DNA from: Fusobacteriales bacterium
GTDB taxonomy: Bacteria; Fusobacteriota; Fusobacteriia; Fusobacteriales; Leptotrichiaceae
Length of the DNA stretch: 11,425 bases
Assembly (NCBI GenBank): GCA_031285605.1
Contig: JAITVW010000211.1
Location: 1 to 11,425 of the forward strand
Reading direction: 5' to 3'
Below, one piece after another: positions 3,980 to 11,425 of the stretch; position 1 is the stretch's first letter, and each line of letters begins with the position of its first letter. The position numbers were made by a program, and so were the translations under genes. Below the pieces are notes generated by a model. That model saw only the letters and a program-made list of their open reading frames with translations. It ran no database searches and was not told where the DNA came from.

Positions 3980-4756
3980 TTGGAAAAACAAGCCGCAATA
4001 GTAATAGGAGGCGGACAAACCCTCGGGGAGTTTCTTTCCAAAGGGTTGGCCGAAGCCGGTTATGATGTACTGACAGCAGATATAAACGGAGAAAATGCCG
4101 AAAAAGTAAAAAATGAAATTAACAGCAAATATCAGGGGAACTTTCAAAGCTTTCAAGTAAATGCCGCCAATGAAGAGGAAGTTATAAACCTGAGAAAATT
4201 TGCAGAACAAAATTACAAGCATATTGATCTTCTTGTATATAATGCCGGAGTTGCCAGAAGTTCAAAAATTGACAGTTTTGATCTCAAAGACTGGGATATT
4301 TCTGTATCTGTGAATCTTACCGGATATTTTCTGTGTGCAAGGGAAATATCAAAAATCATGATAAAACAAGGTTTTGGAAATATTATACAGATTAATACAA
4401 AATCCGGTAAAGTAGGAAGCAAACATAATTCAGCATACTCTGCTTCAAAATTCGGCGGTGTGGGGTTGACCCAGTCACTTGCTTTGGATCTTGCAGAACA
4501 TAATATTCGTGTAAACAGCCTTATGCTGGGAAATTTGCTAAAATCTCCTATGTTTCAGAGTCTTCTGCCGCAATATGCCAAAAAACTCGGAGTTTCTGAA
4601 GATCAGGTAGAGAAAATCTACAGAGATAAAGTACCATTAAAAAGAGGCTGTGAATATCAGGATGTTCTTAACATCCTCCTGTTTTATGCTTCTGACAAAG
4701 CTTCTTACTGCACAGGTCAGTCTATTAATATTACAGGCGGACAGGTTATGTTTTAG
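3980..4756 (+). CDS. srlD: Sorbitol-6-phosphate 2-dehydrogenase (SDR family)
   Basis: A 258-residue cytoplasmic short-chain dehydrogenase that oxidises sorbitol-6-phosphate to fructose-6-phosphate with NAD+, the step after PTS import. It aligns without large gaps to E. coli SrlD. Visible are the nucleotide-binding motif VIGGGQTLG (8-16), NAG (88-90), Asn112, the catalytic YSASK (Tyr153, Lys157), the near-invariant GKVGSKHNSAYSASKFGGVG stretch (143-162) and the C-terminal CTGQSINITGGQVMF. The serine expected 13 residues before Tyr153 is Thr140 here (INTKSG against INSKSG in E. coli). Translation starts at TTG, nine bases after AAAGGGA (3964-3970); no in-frame ATG or GTG is available nearby, and this start restores the E. 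coli N-terminus. It lies 86 bases after srlE. Confidence 0.93.
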   Translation: MEKQAAIVIGGGQTLGEFLSKGLAEAGYDVLTADINGENAEKVKNEINSKYQGNFQSFQVNAANEEEVINLRKFAEQNYKHIDLLVYNAGVARSSKIDSFDLKDWDISVSVNLTGYFLCAREISKIMIKQGFGNIIQINTKSGKVGSKHNSAYSASKFGGVGLTQSLALDLAEHNIRVNSLMLGNLLKSPMFQSLLPQYAKKLGVSEDQVEKIYRDKVPLKRGCEYQDVLNILLFYASDKASYCTGQSINITGGQVMF

Positions 4757-4875
4757 TTTTTTAAATACAAATTTTTTAAAGGGACTGTATCAAAGAGTCT
4801 CTTAATACCAGAACTAAAAACAATATATTTGCTAAATAAAGATTAGTTTATAGAGAATTTCGCACACTCTCTACT

Positions 4876-4901
4876 AAAAAAGAGGCAGCTGCCTCTTTTT
4901 T
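4876..4901. terminator. Bidirectional terminator between srlD and the barrel gene
   Basis: A perfect 26-bp palindrome: six A, then GAGGCAG and its complement CTGCCTC, then six T. Having A and T runs on opposite sides, it can stop transcription from both directions. It lies 120 bases after srlD, and its right end contains two bases of the stop codon (4902-4900) of the leftward gene. Confidence 0.92.
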
Positions 4902-7900
4902 AAAACTTTCCTATTATATTTATAAACCATCCTTGAGCATTTATATCTGTATCTCTCAGATCGTCCTGAAAATTTGAAAAATTATATCCTACACCTATTT
5001 TCAAATTTTCTCCTATATGCTTGTACACTCCTGCTAATGCTCCGTGTTTTAAATTTTCCGTATTATTGTTTTTTCCTATATCAGCAAGAAATCTGTATTC
5101 CGCCATCAAATCCCAGTCCTTTATTACTTCATATTCCTGTCTGAATCCCAGCAGCGCAAAGTTTTTTTCTACTTTTATATTTCTCCTGTCTGAAGTTTTA
5201 TAATAGTCATTTTCAAATTTTACCGCTGTTTTCATACCTGTTGTAAACCTTTTGGTAATTTTATAATTTCCCTCTGCTTCAAATATGTGTTTAAATTCCT
5301 CAAGATAAGAAGTTTCCCTGTCAGAATCATTTTCTCTGTTTAATATATAACTGTATCTGCCCAGCATATTAAATCTGTTATTGTATACAGGCCTGTAAGC
5401 TATTCCTATTCCTGCTTCCGCATACTCATTAACAATTCTGTTCGTTCTTTTATCTTTGGAAACAGTATAATCACCTTTGGCAAGAAATCTCAAAGACTCT
5501 GTTACTTTATAGCCTGCCGAATTCAGCAATACATATTGGACTTCATCTGTAGCATCTCCTTTATCCATTCTGTACTCTAATTTATTCTGAAGCTGAAAAT
5601 TCGACTTTACAAAACTTGATAACAGACTTACAGCTGTTCTGTCATAAGAAGGTCCATTGTTGGGATTTACCTTTCCATACTGATATGAAACTCCTGCTCT
5701 GTAATTATCAGTAAGACTGTAGTCAGCTCCATATGATTCCAGATAACTTTTTTCATCTCTTTCTTTTAAAAACTGATTTTCCGCATATACTGAAAACTTG
5801 TCTGTTATTCTTGCTCTCTGACCTATCACTACTTTATCAGAATTTTTTGAGATACTGTTCCATAAATCATATCCCGTATAAATGCTGTAATTATTGGTTA
5901 TTTTATAATCAGCAGTAATTTCCGCTCCTGATGTATTATTATCCCCGAGCTTGCCTTCTGCTTTTACAGTCAGTCTGTTATTCCATCTGCTTTCCACTCC
6001 CAGTCTGTAAAGTGATCTGTTATCATAATTCTTCTGCTTTACAGCTTCCTGAATTATTCCGTAAATATCCAGATTGGAAGTTACTTTATAATCGGCTCTT
6101 ACTGCAAGAATGAGAGCTTCTTTATCCTCTTCATTTGTCATTTTTTCTGTTTTATTTTCCATTGCTGCCGATAATCTCAGTTTTTCACTTACTGCATACT
6201 CTGTCTGCCCGGTTATAGATTCTTTATTTTCTATCCTTCCGTCTAAATAATTCTCTTTTGCCGTGCTTTCATATTTTGTACGAAAATATAACCCGTCTGC
6301 GGGATTCAGCTTTATTTCCCAGCCATAAGCCTCCAGAGCATAATCATTACTGTACTGTCCTCCGGAAAAATCGTTTCCTACATTTAAATACCAGCCGTTC
6401 ACTTCATTTCCATACGGCTTAAATAAATTCTTATTCAAATCATAAAGATTTAATACTCCCCTGAGTGAATAGGCTCTTCCTCTGCTTTTTTCAGGAGGAT
6501 TGCTGTTTTTATCAGTAAATTCCAAACCTCCGTTATAAGATATAAAATAATTATCTATATTTCTTGATTTGGACTCACTGTATTCTCCTCTTAAATATGT
6601 ACCATCCGAATATCTTAAAACAGCGTCTCCACCATAAATTTCATAATCAGAACTGTTATCCTTTTCTTCTTTTATGTAAGTACCGCCTATTCGCAGATGT
6701 TCACCTATCCACGCACTTCCTCTTCCTCCATAAGTCATATTGTTCAGTGATTCTGATGTTCTCGGTTCATAATCATATTCTGCCACGAGATATAATTCAC
6801 TTCCGGATTTTCCGTCTTCCTGTATCAAATCATTGTATGAATCTGCTGCATGATCTTTAAGCGGTTTTCTCAGAGTAATCCTTCCCTGATAATTATCTAT
6901 TTCATAATCTTTTCCTTCTGCGAGATAAACTACTTTTTCTGTAATCCCTGAGTTTTTATTCCTTACTTCTACACTTATTTTTTCAGTATCTCTGATAACT
7001 TCACCGTTTTTTAGAAAATAAAGGCTTCCTCCTGTTCCTAAAAATTCATTTTTTGCGTGAATTGTTTCAGCTTCTGAGCCAAAAGCCGTAATATTATATT
7101 TATCTTCACCGAAGCTCGTGGTCTTAGAGCTTATAAGTTCTCCTTTAGCTCCGTACAATGTTCTGTTCACCTGTGAAAATTCCGGACCGCTCAGCCCTGT
7201 TCCATAAGTTCCCCACATTATACCGGACTTTTTATACTCCAGCTGACCAAATATTTTCCCTTGTTGTAAATAGCTGTTTGCATTTGTTATTATAGAATCA
7301 TCACCGTATGTGGGATAAAAATTATCTTCTCTTATTCTAAAAAATACATCTTCTCTGTCTCTTTTGAAAAAATCATCAAACAAATCTTTTATCTCGCTGT
7401 CTTTAGTATCAAACTGCAGTCTTCCTCTCAGATTATCATTAAACTTTGCTTCTCCGTCAAAAGCTATCCTTCCCTGTTTAAAAAGTTTCCCGTTCATTTC
7501 ATTGCCGTCGATATCTTTATATTCACCGGTATTGGAATATTGCCCTATTGTAAAGTCGGCTATTCCTACACCAAAGAAATATCTGCTGTCTATTTCTACT
7601 TTCAGATTATATTCTTCTGTATTTCCATTTTTATCTATTGCCTGTATCAAAAGGTCACTCTCTCCCGAAGGGATTAATCTTTCCGCTTTTACGGCACCTG
7701 TTTCTTTATCTATTGAATAATTATCACCGTTTATCTTCAAGGTTTGGATATTGGTAAGATTATTTCCCGAGATAATTACTTTTCCAAAAGTGCTTTTTAT
7801 ATTTCTTATTCTTAATTCAGCATTACTGTATACCTGTTCATTATACTCTTTTCCAAAATCATATGTATTTTCTTTTGATTTTCTGCTTATCAAATCTATT

Positions 7901-8568
7901 ATTCCCAGATTTGTTTCATCAAAATCTCCTGATTTATCATATACTTTTAATTTATATGTAAGCTGGTTTCCCGGAATAAAATAGTCGGAACTTTTTGGTT
8001 TCCAGCTTATTGTATCTTCATTTTTCAATTCTTTGCCTTTAATCACAGCTACAGGGTTTAGCGTATTTTTATCTTCTCCTCTGTAAATTTTTAATTCATA
8101 TCCTGTAATATAATCGCTGTAATTAAGTTTTACCCTGAAATTCAGTTCTTCTTCAGTAAATTTTCTTCTGTTTACTACCGGACTGGTAAGCAGTTCCACA
8201 TTCATTTCAGGATCTGCTTTTATAACCTCGGCAGAAGTCCATATAGTTCCATTTCCCATATTTATTCTGTGGTTTTCTCTGTTTAACCGGGTTTCGTCAA
8301 ATTTATTATCCGATTCACTTTTATATAAAACTTCCTCTGTTTTTATTGTATCTGTTGCCAAACTTTCAGTATCCGGTACTACTTCATCAGAATCATCTGA
8401 CCCGTCAGTATTTTCAGTTTTACTTTTTTCATTTTCTCTGCTGTTTTTTATCCCAAATCCTTCAGAGTGATCAGGGATAGAGCTGTTTAAGCCCTTCCCC
8501 ATCACTATAAGTGAGTTTAGACACATCAAAAAAAGCAACAGAGATTTTTTATTTTTAAGATTCAACAT
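4900..8568 (-). CDS. Predicted outer-membrane beta-barrel protein of a DUF11-associated surface family
   Basis: A 1222-residue secreted protein. Residues 1-26 look like a signal peptide (Lys-rich start, hydrophobic 10-23). An acidic, Ser/Thr/Asp-rich linker follows (about 30-80), then two Ig-like beta domains (about 137-226 and 248-326). From about 330 comes a segment I recognise from proteobacterial DUF11-linked barrel proteins: FFGVGIADFTIG (331-342), FYPTYGDDS (417-425), EFLGTGGSLYFLK (508-520), ISVEVRNKNSG (531-541), GKDYEIDNYQGRITLRKPL (552-570) and ELYLVAEYDYEP (591-602). Residues 600-1222 are alternating polar/aromatic strands ending in Phe, the usual C-terminal sign of an outer-membrane barrel. 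The start is ATG at 8568, six bases after AGGTGAGG (8575-8582); an earlier ATG at 8616 would put 16 charged residues before the signal peptide. It starts one base after the upstream stop, so translation is probably coupled. Substrate and function are unknown. Confidence 0.82.
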   Translation of the reverse strand: MLNLKNKKSLLLFLMCLNSLIVMGKGLNSSIPDHSEGFGIKNSRENEKSKTENTDGSDDSDEVVPDTESLATDTIKTEEVLYKSESDNKFDETRLNRENHRINMGNGTIWTSAEVIKADPEMNVELLTSPVVNRRKFTEEELNFRVKLNYSDYITGYELKIYRGEDKNTLNPVAVIKGKELKNEDTISWKPKSSDYFIPGNQLTYKLKVYDKSGDFDETNLGIIDLISRKSKENTYDFGKEYNEQVYSNAELRIRNIKSTFGKVIISGNNLTNIQTLKINGDNYSIDKETGAVKAERLIPSGESDLLIQAIDKNGNTEEYNLKVEIDSRYFFGVGIADFTIGQYSNTGEYKDIDGNEMNGKLFKQGRIAFDGEAKFNDNLRGRLQFDTKDSEIKDLFDDFFKRDREDVFFRIREDNFYPTYGDDSIITNANSYLQQGKIFGQLEYKKSGIMWGTYGTGLSGPEFSQVNRTLYGAKGELISSKTTSFGEDKYNITAFGSEAETIHAKNEFLGTGGSLYFLKNGEVIRDTEKISVEVRNKNSGITEKVVYLAEGKDYEIDNYQGRITLRKPLKDHAADSYNDLIQEDGKSGSELYLVAEYDYEPRTSESLNNMTYGGRGSAWIGEHLRIGGTYIKEEKDNSSDYEIYGGDAVLRYSDGTYLRGEYSESKSRNIDNYFISYNGGLEFTDKNSNPPEKSRGRAYSLRGVLNLYDLNKNLFKPYGNEVNGWYLNVGNDFSGGQYSNDYALEAYGWEIKLNPADGLYFRTKYESTAKENYLDGRIENKESITGQTEYAVSEKLRLSAAMENKTEKMTNEEDKEALILAVRADYKVTSNLDIYGIIQEAVKQKNYDNRSLYRLGVESRWNNRLTVKAEGKLGDNNTSGAEITADYKITNNYSIYTGYDLWNSISKNSDKVVIGQRARITDKFSVYAENQFLKERDEKSYLESYGADYSLTDNYRAGVSYQYGKVNPNNGPSYDRTAVSLLSSFVKSNFQLQNKLEYRMDKGDATDEVQYVLLNSAGYKVTESLRFLAKGDYTVSKDKRTNRIVNEYAEAGIGIAYRPVYNNRFNMLGRYSYILNRENDSDRETSYLEEFKHIFEAEGNYKITKRFTTGMKTAVKFENDYYKTSDRRNIKVEKNFALLGFRQEYEVIKDWDLMAEYRFLADIGKNNNTENLKHGALAGVYKHIGENLKIGVGYNFSNFQDDLRDTDINAQGWFINIIGKF

Positions 8569-8569
8569 G

Positions 8570-9370
8570 CTATTCCTCACCTCTTTTCTTTGATTGTACT
8601 CCAAAGTTGAATTCATTTAATCCATATTGTGTTATTAATTTTACTCTGGGATTTTCGCTAATTACTTTCATTCCTTTCGGCAGTGATGCTTCATCTACTT
8701 TTATTATGAAATTTTTTCCTCTTTCCTTTTCTGCATATTCGTCAGAAATGTGATATCTTCCGTATTCATCTGTAGTTACAGTTATTCCGGTCGGAGTTTT
8801 TAATTTTGCACCTGCTATTCCCTCTTCCTGAATTCCGGCATTCTCTATTGTAATTTCCTGAATATACTTAGTACCGCTTCTTTTTATTTCTTTGCTTATA
8901 TAGAATTCCTGTGATGATATTCCTGACTTCATATTTCCCTTACTTTCCAGAGTACTTATTATTCCTTTATTATATATAAGATTCATTCCTTCTTTTGTCG
9001 TAATTGTCATGAATGTTTCCCGTATCTCGGAAGTTTTTATTTCTGTTCTCACAATTACTTTATTTACTCCTTTTAAAGTCTTGTTTAATGATTTCCCTTC
9101 CATTTTTTCTATCTTTATACCGTTAAAAATCAAATCATTATTATTAACCTTCTTTCTTGATATTTCTTTGCCTGATGCGTCCAGCATAATTAATTCTGCT
9201 GTATCATCGACATAATCTGATTCGTTTACCACATCTTTAATTATTATATTATTTGCTCCCGCATCATTTTGTATTCCGTCTCCATTTACATCTTCAAAGA
9301 CTTTTCCTATTATACTTGCACTATTCGCAATACTGTTACCTGAATCGTTGCACTTGCAGCGCCGGTCACT
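8570..9370 (-). CDS. 3' part of frameshifted DUF11 / SdrD-B surface protein gene
   Basis: This frame is open from 9370 to the TAG at 8572-8570 but has no ribosome site. It reads NSASIIGKVFEDVNGDGIQ from about 9330, the typical start of an SdrD-B-like domain, with the calcium-loop-like DVNGDGIQND (9292-9263). After a beta-rich middle comes IAGAKLKTPTGITVTTDEYG, then KNFIIKVDEASLPKGMKVI, SENPRVKL and LNEFNFGVQ. This order is what I know from proteobacterial DUF11 proteins, where it follows the DUF11 repeats in the same chain (TTDxxGRxH, NFILKLDxxTLPTGY, TENPRV, NFG). It should therefore be the C-terminal part of the upstream protein, placed in another frame by a one-base change in 9312-9370. 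A GTG at 9232 could open a 220-residue reading frame, but it lies inside the domain and has no Shine-Dalgarno sequence. Confidence 0.78.
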   Translation of the reverse strand, partial: SDRRCKCNDSGNSIANSASIIGKVFEDVNGDGIQNDAGANNIIIKDVVNESDYVDDTAELIMLDASGKEISRKKVNNNDLIFNGIKIEKMEGKSLNKTLKGVNKVIVRTEIKTSEIRETFMTITTKEGMNLIYNKGIISTLESKGNMKSGISSQEFYISKEIKRSGTKYIQEITIENAGIQEEGIAGAKLKTPTGITVTTDEYGRYHISDEYAEKERGKNFIIKVDEASLPKGMKVISENPRVKLITQYGLNEFNFGVQSKKRGEE

Positions 9371-11425
9371 TCACGGCTGTCTTCTCTGACAATTGCAGAT
9401 GTTTTGTATTTCCCCGTCTGTATTGCAGTTCCTATTTTAGCAGCATAAGTTATTATTATTTCTTCTTTAGGATTCAGATCGAAAGTACTGAAAATCACAT
9501 CTCCTGTATTAGATACCGATAGTCCGCCGCTTGCCTCCGATGTTGTTCTTAATTTTGAACTGTCCTTTTTATATGCCGCTGTCTCATCAATATAACCGAA
9601 TCCCACAGGCAGTATATTTTTAACATTTAATCCTGTTCTTGCCACTCTTCCCTTGTTATAAATCCTTACAGTATATTCTACCGTTTCTCCCAGCTCTGCT
9701 ATATTTTTTGAAGCTGTGATACTTACAGTCAGATCTGCCGCTTCAGGTTTTGCTTTTATGGATGCTGTTTTTAGCTCCGCTCCATTCAGATAACCGGTAT
9801 TTATAATATCATTATAAGCAGCTTTATGTATAACAGCAGAAACAATATATTCTACTTTTGAATTCGGTCCCAGATTAATAGTATCATTCAGATCGGAAGA
9901 TGTGGTTCCCGTTACACCATAAGCCTGACCGCTTACTACTTTTCCGCTTACTGTCCAGCCTTCAAAGGCATTTATTGTATTTCCGTCAAAATCAAAAGTT
10001 TCCTGTTCGAGCCTTATATCCTTTACTACATTTCCTTTAGCAATTGCATTCCCTTTATTCTCAACAGTAATTTTGTATTCTACTTTATCACCGGCAGTAT
10101 ATCCGTTTTCAAAGTTTGTGATTATTTCTTTTACTGCTGTTACTTTACTGTTATCCGTTACAGGATCTACAGATGGTGTTGACGGTTCTACGCTGTTTCC
10201 GTCGGCTAATCCTGTATTTGTGACTTTTCCTGCTGCATTTATATTTACTACTGCGCTTACTGTATATTCTACTACAGCTCCCGGTGACAATGCCAGTATA
10301 TCATTCAAATCACCCGCAGTGCTGCCAGTCACTCCTATACCTGTTCCGGCTGTAACAGCTCCTGTTATTGTCCAGCTTGTAAATGATTCTATGCTGTTTC
10401 CAAGTAAATCAGTCGTTTTCTGATCCGCTCTTATGTCTTTAATGCTATAATTATTTACAGGTAAAACTCCTGTATTTTTTAAAGTAATTCTGTATTCTAT
10501 AGTTTGACCCGGCATGTAGCCATTTAGCAAGTTTGTAACTAATTCTTTTTTTACTGTTACTTTACTTTTGTCATTTACAGGCTCTGCAGGCGGTGTTGAC
10601 GGTTCTATTCCGTTTCCGTCGGCTAATCCTGCATTCGTGATTTTTCCTGCCGCATCTGTATTTATTACCGCCGATATTGTATACTCTATCTTTCCTCCGG
10701 CAGATAATGATACAGTGTCATTTAAATCATCTGTAGTATTTGGTGTCACTCCTGTCCCTGTTCCATTTGTAACAGTACCTGTTATTGTCCATCCTGTAAA
10801 TGAATCTATTCTGTTTCCGCTTATATCTGTAGTTTTTTGATTGGTTCTTATATCCTTTATTTCGTAGCTGCTTACCAGTGTAGCACCTGTATTTTCCAGC
10901 AGTATTTTATACTGTACTGCCTGACCCGGTGTATAACCGTTTGATAAATCTGTTATCAATTCTTTTTTAGCTGAAATATTACTTTTATTATTTTCAGGAT
11001 TAACAGGAGGTGTTGATGGTTCTACAGGATTTCCATTTCCTACACCTTTATTAGTAATTTTACCTGCTGCATTAGTATTTATTACTGCTGTTATCAGATA
11101 TTCCGCTTTTCCACCCGAAGAAAGTGAAATTATATCATTTAAATCACCTGTAGTATTTAAAGTTATTCCCGTTGCCGAACCAGATATTACAGTTCCCGTT
11201 ATCTGCCAGCTTGTAAATGCATCTATTACTGTCCCATTCATATCTGTAGTTTTCTGATCTGTTCTTATATCTTTGACATTATATCCCAATGCTAAGACAG
11301 CACCTTGATTTTCAACTGTTATTTTGTATTGTACTGTCTGACCCGGTATATAGCCGTTTGATAAATCTGTTATCAGCTCTTTATTTATTCTGATATTATT
11401 TATATTATTTTCAGGCTCCTTCGGT
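9310..11425 (-). CDS. DUF11-repeat surface protein, partial, frameshifted at its C-terminal end
   Basis: The frame is open from the right edge (first full codon at 11424) to a TAA at 9312-9310, about 704 residues; the true start lies outside the window. It consists of four tandem 139-residue repeats, then a more ordinary DUF11 domain (about 9714-9330) with the typical LGETVEYTVRIYNKG, NVKNILPVGFGY and FDLNPKEEIIITYAAK pattern. DUF11 domains are extracellular beta sandwiches forming stalks of surface proteins. Linkers between repeats carry EPSTPP-type motifs. The last DUF11 strand ends SATIQVTV, after which the frame gives only LRIVQV and a stop, while the -1 frame continues into an SdrD-B-like domain. 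It is therefore probably one gene with the segment 9370-8570. A TTG at 11289 lies within the first repeat and is not a real start. Confidence 0.85.
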   Translation of the reverse strand, partial: PKEPENNINNIRINKELITDLSNGYIPGQTVQYKITVENQGAVLALGYNVKDIRTDQKTTDMNGTVIDAFTSWQITGTVISGSATGITLNTTGDLNDIISLSSGGKAEYLITAVINTNAAGKITNKGVGNGNPVEPSTPPVNPENNKSNISAKKELITDLSNGYTPGQAVQYKILLENTGATLVSSYEIKDIRTNQKTTDISGNRIDSFTGWTITGTVTNGTGTGVTPNTTDDLNDTVSLSAGGKIEYTISAVINTDAAGKITNAGLADGNGIEPSTPPAEPVNDKSKVTVKKELVTNLLNGYMPGQTIEYRITLKNTGVLPVNNYSIKDIRADQKTTDLLGNSIESFTSWTITGAVTAGTGIGVTGSTAGDLNDILALSPGAVVEYTVSAVVNINAAGKVTNTGLADGNSVEPSTPSVDPVTDNSKVTAVKEIITNFENGYTAGDKVEYKITVENKGNAIAKGNVVKDIRLEQETFDFDGNTINAFEGWTVSGKVVSGQAYGVTGTTSSDLNDTINLGPNSKVEYIVSAVIHKAAYNDIINTGYLNGAELKTASIKAKPEAADLTVSITASKNIAELGETVEYTVRIYNKGRVARTGLNVKNILPVGFGYIDETAAYKKDSSKLRTTSEASGGLSVSNTGDVIFSTFDLNPKEEIIITYAAKIGTAIQTGKYKTSAIVREDSREVTGAASATIQVTVLRIVQV
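9312..9370 (-). other. Zone of the reading-frame shift in the DUF11 protein gene
   Basis: The upstream frame is open down to TAA at 9312-9310; the downstream frame is open from 9370, just after a TGA at 9373-9371. Both are open only between, so the shift must lie here. Going from CAG GTA ACA GTA to an in-frame ATT GCG AAT AGT needs a -1 shift, as if one base had been lost. I see no homopolymer run or X-XXY-YYZ slippery heptamer in this zone. Confidence 0.75.
9715..11382 (-). repeat. Four tandem 417-bp (139-residue) DUF11-like coding repeats
   Basis: Units at 11382-10966, 10965-10549, 10548-10132 and 10131-9715 have exactly the same spacing: the Tyr codon of the NGY motif falls at 11352, 10935, 10518 and 10101, each 417 bases apart. 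Each unit has the order KEL(I/V)T-NGY-PGQ, Y-I/L-NTG, KDIR-QKTTD, SWTITG, DLND, EYTISAVINT-AAGKITN, DGN-EPSTPP, NDKSKV. The first three are most alike; the fourth is diverged (DFDGNTI, no EPSTPP linker). The array may continue beyond the right edge. Confidence 0.9.

Follow-up and report, generated by a model that had tools for sequence, protein, structure and literature searches.

The minus strand of the DNA analysed here (the window; 11,425 nucleotides, the entire contig JAITVW010000211.1, C317 in our set, of a fragmentary Fusobacteriales genome of 1.94 Mb in 322 contigs) carries a gene for a repeat-rich DUF11 protein, the stalk, followed by a gene for a protein predicted to fold as a large outer-membrane barrel (Table 1). 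The partnership of stalk and barrel is almost certainly real and, judged from sequence comparisons, the pairing spans several phyla, beyond Fusobacteriota. We lean towards a reading in which each barrel exports the stalk encoded beside it and then keeps hold of the stalk's foot; passage of the stalk through the barrel, its docking and an adhesive function are the parts of this reading that we infer.

Pairing of the stalk and barrel genes

The first-pass annotation of this DNA, made from its letters alone, described a DUF11 stalk gene, a one-base gap (TAGCATG) and a 1222-residue barrel gene, and the coordinates confirm this layout: the stalk stop codon (8572-8570) is followed by a single C and by the barrel ATG at 8568. 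A ribosome-binding-like AGGTGAGG was seen by eye just 5' of this ATG, within the stalk gene, and a longer barrel frame of 1238 codons, open from an alternative start at 8616, overlaps the stalk gene. Near its C-terminus the stalk has a conserved domain, the adaptor (pattern E-x-G-I-P-G...T-D-x-x-G-R-Y-H...N-P...F-N-F-G-V), which looks like a specialised domain of the SdrD_B/CnaB type.

Protein searches, which scored the 8000 candidates sharing most words, found 42 relatives of the barrel, including proteins of Vibrio, Leucothrix, Microbulbifer, Geotalea and Cetobacterium; database names of such proteins are 'hypothetical', 'OmpA family' and 'TonB-dependent receptor'. A scan of genome contigs with the window protein alone detected no relative, and an alignment query retrieved at least 578 loci, the best 80 of which were analysed (henceforth, the loci). 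By record title, about 70 of these best 80 belong to Pseudomonadota (among them Vibrionaceae, Luteimonas, Pseudoxanthomonas, Stenotrophomonas, Kangiella, Leucothrix, Acinetobacter and Comamonas), three to Fusobacteriota and three to Campylobacterota, with single loci from Myxococcales or other Deltaproteobacteria, Nitrospirae and Desulfobulbaceae; the placement in Fusobacteriota that was first suggested is thus too narrow. In a tree of 47 barrels (midpoint root, for drawing), those of Vibrionaceae are nested within a clade rich in Fusobacteriota (support 100/98), three other members of which are of unknown origin, and this nesting suggests lateral transfer. The barrel fragment at L005 (genome G004), which lacks the N-terminal third, lies beside cdd- and deoD-like genes with no adaptor, and is a decayed gene or a chimeric contig.

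The adaptor lies beside the barrel in 74 of the 80 loci, one copy each: 67 times in a separate upstream open reading frame (ORF) on the same strand and seven times in the same ORF as the barrel. Of the six loci lacking it, five are cut by the contig end: four (L028, L042, L070 and L077) start within the barrel gene or very close to it, and L076 starts 0.4 kb upstream of it; the sixth, L041, has 9.8 kb of upstream sequence without an adaptor. The adaptor model was trained on 66 of the 80 loci plus the window, and a control model limited to 18 Vibrionaceae adaptors found the adaptor in 55 of the 61 other loci, with the identical six misses. With the barrel start chosen as close to the stalk stop as possible, the barrel gene overlaps that stop in 30 of the 67 separate pairs (by 4 bases in 26, 1 base in three and 8 bases in one) and starts after it in the others (by up to 20 bases in 20, by up to 60 in nine and by more in eight). 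Stalk and barrel are separated by 0.7-0.8 kb in three Photobacterium loci (L018, L019 and L021), where no plus-strand ORF of at least 90 codons was listed.

At the genome level, the barrel was found in 28 of 98 Fusobacteriota genomes (two of them marginal, E ~3e-4 and 4e-4) and the adaptor in 25, all 25 of which carry the barrel (Fisher p = 1.9e-22, with the two marginal barrels treated as absent). Among 299 Pseudomonadota genomes drawn evenly, at least 53 contain the barrel (at least 45 at E<=1e-20 and at least 14 of full-length type at E<=1e-250) and at least 40 the adaptor, these counts being lower bounds as at most 2 barrel and 17 adaptor candidates were scored per genome; the barrel is present in 40 of the 40 adaptor genomes, and the adaptor in 39 of the 45 and 14 of the 14 genomes of the two stricter barrel classes. 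The Fisher p for co-occurrence in Pseudomonadota is 9.9e-39.

The gene order varies. The 31 full-length Fusobacteriota barrels follow a separate stalk ORF (18), lie within the stalk ORF (4), directly precede it (4), precede it by ~3.3 kb (1) or have no adaptor on the same contig and strand (4). In one swapped case (G056:C15:358-34242, minus strand), the barrel gene is followed by a stalk frame of 10,057 codons. Eight compact fusions of 1855-1916 codons also occur in Fusobacteriota, with the barrel match beginning past the Ig (immunoglobulin)-like part, and in G040 the parts of such a fusion are split over two frames. Nine weaker barrel matches form a distant subfamily, one member of which has an adaptor in its ORF, and four Fusobacteriota adaptors were unpaired with any barrel. 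This pairing analysis covered 49 of 65 match rows; the 16 omitted were second pieces of one gene, two 41-codon fragments and two marginal matches. All three arrangements, stalk-barrel, barrel-stalk and fused stalk-adaptor-barrel, therefore occur.

Adjacency, fusion, gene-order swap and genome co-occurrence together strongly support the earlier proposal that the two products act together. Neither of the outcomes named beforehand as refuting it arose, as a barrel is predicted and the two genes are found side by side. That the genes are unrelated neighbours is scarcely credible, as both Fisher tests, the fusions and the order swaps contradict it. In its favour, neither a barrel nor an adaptor is seen in two genomes, one of them 87% complete, among the four of the genus to which the window belongs; it is because of these two genomes that, on sequence evidence, we regard the unit as accessory.

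Stalk and barrel proteins

The part of the stalk gene that lies within the contig (9310-11424) matched DUF11 (PF01345, 2.8e-15), DUF7507 (1e-14) and TIGR01451 (4.4e-29). Tandem DUF11/DUF7507 repeats, one criterion for a DUF11/CLIPPER fibrillar adhesin, are present in the stalk, and this piece had no sequence relative in the PDB at E<=0.1. Near 9310 (9305-9350) the reading frame is broken, the last ~245 codons lying in another frame. The matching stretch is a single open frame in G026, a genome of the same genus assembled in three contigs totalling 4.5 Mb (loci L002 and L004); by this comparison, either the window's assembly is in error here or its strain carries a mutation. Of the earlier DUF11/SdrD-B description of the stalk, the DUF11 part was upheld; the SdrD-type part is a motif recognised by eye, located outside both stalk pieces scanned with Pfam. 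A Pfam scan of 68 related C-terminal pieces (omitting L016, a near copy of L013, and including the window piece and the upstream ORF of the adaptor-less L041) gave an SdrD_B match in 10.

The G026 stalk comprises 4902 residues with 25 regular repeats, spaced mostly by 137 residues. By eye only, Lys, Asp and Asn stand at matching places across the 25 printed repeats; a Lys-Asp-Asn isopeptide triad of DUF11 domains is described in the relevant part of PMC12617251. Residues 1-936 matched no Pfam family at E<=0.01, which leaves room for an adhesive tip of unknown type.

Table 1. Features of the window (positions count from the first letter of the stretch)
Feature	Positions	Strand	Basis and remarks
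DUF11/DUF7507 repeat part of stalk gene, 5' end beyond contig	9310..11425	-	four regular repeats and last DUF11 domain by eye; frame stop 9312-9310
SdrD-type motif GKVFEDVNGDGIQND, second frame of stalk gene	9263..9307	-	by eye; same frame as DUF11 part in G026
Stalk gene C-terminal part, second frame	8570..9307	-	listed ORF starts GTG 9232; ends TAG 8572-8570
Adaptor, conserved C-terminal domain of stalk, ~90 residues	8591..8863	-	alignments; E 8.1e-39 in own genome
Outer-membrane barrel partner (predicted), 1222 residues	4900..8568	-	open frame from ATG 8568; C-terminal end ...INIIGKF
N-terminal Ig-like region of barrel protein, residues ~101-326	7591..8268	-	AlphaFold secondary structure
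Barrel domain (predicted), residues ~330-1222, ~42 strands	4903..7581	-	strands counted from AlphaFold model
Insert in barrel domain after strand 8, residues ~511-588, plug-like by position	6805..7038	-	AlphaFold model
Perfect 26-base palindrome AAAAAAGAGGCAGCTGCCTCTTTTTT with flanking A/T runs, between barrel gene and srlD	4876..4901	.	by eye; unlisted by consensus scan

The barrel protein ends in Phe, as first annotated, and is 93% identical to its G026 counterpart; no PDB sequence relative was found at E<=1. The suggested structure prediction did yield a barrel: the AlphaFold models of the window protein and of a natural fusion (predicted local distance difference test, pLDDT, 72 and 82, respectively) both have ~42 strands. 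In the structural comparison of both models, many alignments to porins start near residue 301 and run through to the C-terminal residue, which would be expected of a predicted barrel whose ends meet. The insert after strand 8 may act as a plug. Foldseek returned generic barrels at low template modelling (TM) score for the first model, with an apolipoprotein on top. In the structural comparison FimD was top for both models, tied with maltoporin in the better one, while SprA was among the matches to the first model and outside the top 50 for the better one. As to the Ig-like domains ascribed to the protein, its N-terminal part is predicted to be beta-rich and Glucodextran_B overlaps the counterpart of this region in the relative P0041, with Big_13 weakly matched in 2 of 25 barrel-family members.

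Export, anchoring and genomic surroundings

According to the model that we favour, the two genes would specify one surface-fibre unit. The stalk would consist of a signal peptide, an N-terminal region without known domain and many DUF11 domains, probably isopeptide-locked, and would cross the outer membrane via the very wide barrel encoded beside its gene. The adaptor would stay at the periplasmic mouth, docking on the Ig-like N-terminal domains of the barrel protein and thereby keeping the fibre from being lost, and an OmpA-type module, where present, would additionally tie the foot to peptidoglycan. The partnership, the conservation of the adaptor, the positions of the OmpA module and the natural fusions come from comparisons; the barrel domain of ~42 strands is a prediction. 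Isopeptide-locked domains would be hard to unfold; unless they travel some other way, they would require a wide pore, and a large dedicated barrel would fit. FimD is a protein-passing usher, and its first place for both models is counted in favour of export. In some single-polypeptide forms without the barrel's Ig part, the adaptor is joined straight to the barrel; because the compact fusions are built in this way, the Ig-like part may be the adaptor docking site of the two-gene form.

OmpA-type domains bind peptidoglycan and are periplasmic. Pfam OmpA (PF00691) matched 42 of the 68 C-terminal pieces, and a home-made OmpA model applied to 81 loci located the module in the stalk, C-terminal to the adaptor, in 41, in the stretch joining adaptor to barrel in three fusions and, on one cut contig (L028), within the barrel ORF. 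In 19 of the 81 loci, exactly the 19 of Vibrionaceae (L007-L016, L018-L024, L030 and L062), the module is encoded on its own, by a lipoprotein-like gene immediately downstream of the barrel gene (PF00691 at 3.5e-34 in that of L007), and the model found no OmpA module in the stalks of these 19. None was found in 17 of the 81 loci, including that of G026 (L004), and in L045 and L049 the model additionally matches the barrel ORF. Because the OmpA-type module adjoins the adaptor, we place the adaptor in the periplasm; with the stalk outside, the chain would cross the outer membrane between the two.

The adjoining OmpA-type domain could also be taken to mean that the stalk, rather than forming a surface fibre, spans the periplasm as a ruler or tether from the outer membrane to the cell wall. 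We consider this very improbable: stalks of 4902 residues to 10,057 codons would far exceed the width of the periplasm, and the relevant parts of PMC12617251 and PMC9210967 present DUF11 proteins as fibres of the cell surface.

A stronger competitor, although still an unlikely one, holds that the barrel merely anchors or displays the stalk and that another exporter brings it to the surface. The adaptor and the OmpA-type module do resemble anchoring parts, and for a published homologue an OmpA-like domain has been described as the anchor (PMC12617251). However, a periplasmic foot with the fibre outside demands a membrane crossing, for which the adjoining dedicated barrel offers the simplest path, and no exporter-like cluster was seen by eye among the 14 most recurrent neighbour clusters (ORFs of 90-900 residues; longer exporters were not looked for).

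The plus strand of the window encodes an ordinary sorbitol operon (GutM, SrlA, SrlE and SrlD) with a glycerol dehydrogenase. Just 143 bases part the barrel gene from srlD (4756-4900), and the palindrome located there is likely a two-way terminator. A 208-residue ORF lies between the barrel gene and srlD in G026 (L004:15744-16370, minus strand) and is missing from the window. A 1023-residue classical autotransporter (PF03797, AC_1) is encoded directly 5' of the stalk gene at G026 L006:13514-16585.

Comparison with known systems

DUF11 domains are widespread in surface fibres, including Gram-negative ones, according to the relevant part of PMC12617251; we found no account of how Gram-negative DUF11 fibres cross the outer membrane and stay in it. 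A description of the stalk-barrel pair was likewise not found in our searches of the open-licence PMC literature. In the portions concerned, the DUF11 mentions of the type 11 secretion paper PMC12282271 are mostly prefix matches such as DUF1194, and PMC3206015, PMC3751524, PMC6329079 and PMC6304850 likewise matched through the prefix. A conserved dedicated barrel partner makes the crossing of DUF11 fibres a question that can be tested with one gene deletion.

The closest published case is a DUF11 domain of the Acinetobacter silvestris adhesin B9T28_05395, crystallised (9IFR) and shown to contain an isopeptide bond, as given in part of PMC12617251. Our locus L045 is from the same strain, and its upstream ORF, the stalk, has 2129 residues from ATG, with 9IFR mapping to residues 708-828. 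This adhesin ends with the adaptor and an OmpA module, and a family barrel gene starts 12 bases past it. The passage of PMC12617251 on this adhesin regards the OmpA-like domain as its anchor; section 8 makes no mention of a barrel partner, and neither 'outer membrane' nor 'barrel' turned up when the main text was searched by word start. The G026 stalk differs in being far longer and in having no OmpA module detected at its locus.

In the type Vb, or two-partner, systems a large exoprotein gene likewise stands next to the gene of its own outer-membrane barrel. This likeness, drawn in the first-pass annotation, holds as an analogy: no defining type Vb domain was found, that is, no POTRA or ShlB in the window barrel at E<=1 or in 25 family members at E<=0.01 (the scope of all the barrel searches below), and no two-partner secretion (TPS) domain in residues 1-936 of the G026 stalk. 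Our family differs from type Vb by its larger predicted barrel, its natural fusions and a foot that is presumably retained. The fused forms, with an N-terminal passenger and a C-terminal barrel, recall type Va autotransporters; PF03797 was not found in the barrels. Compared with the 12 strands of a classical autotransporter barrel (part of PMC3206015), ~42 are predicted here, and many members have OmpA or Ig-like domains of periplasmic type between passenger and barrel.

Candidate assignments to other systems were rejected at the sequence level. No usher family was matched (hhalign probability 1.3% against four K-12 ushers), and no pilus chaperone was apparent by eye among the 14 neighbour clusters examined. 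Type 11 secretion (Slam) was discarded in the absence of a DUF560 barrel, and a TonB-dependent receptor in the absence of plug and barrel families. This last result also bears on the idea that the barrel is a nutrient transporter with the DUF11 protein as its capturing arm: the label 'TonB-dependent receptor' on 6 of the 15 plasmid matches listed, one of them in an operon with a DUF11 gene, speaks for it, but the missing receptor families and stalks of thousands of residues, which would be unlike capture lipoproteins, make it improbable.

SprA serves many substrates, whereas a barrel of the window family has one neighbouring partner. We tentatively raise the possibility, which for now we would rather doubt than assert, that these barrels are outer-membrane translocons for proteins, of a class that has so far gone unrecognised. 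Such a barrel would be formed by one chain with ~40 strands, exceed SprA in width, pass one folded, isopeptide-locked DUF11 partner fibre and then hold its adaptor foot; the class would comprise split, swapped, fused and, in Vibrionaceae, three-gene forms across several phyla.
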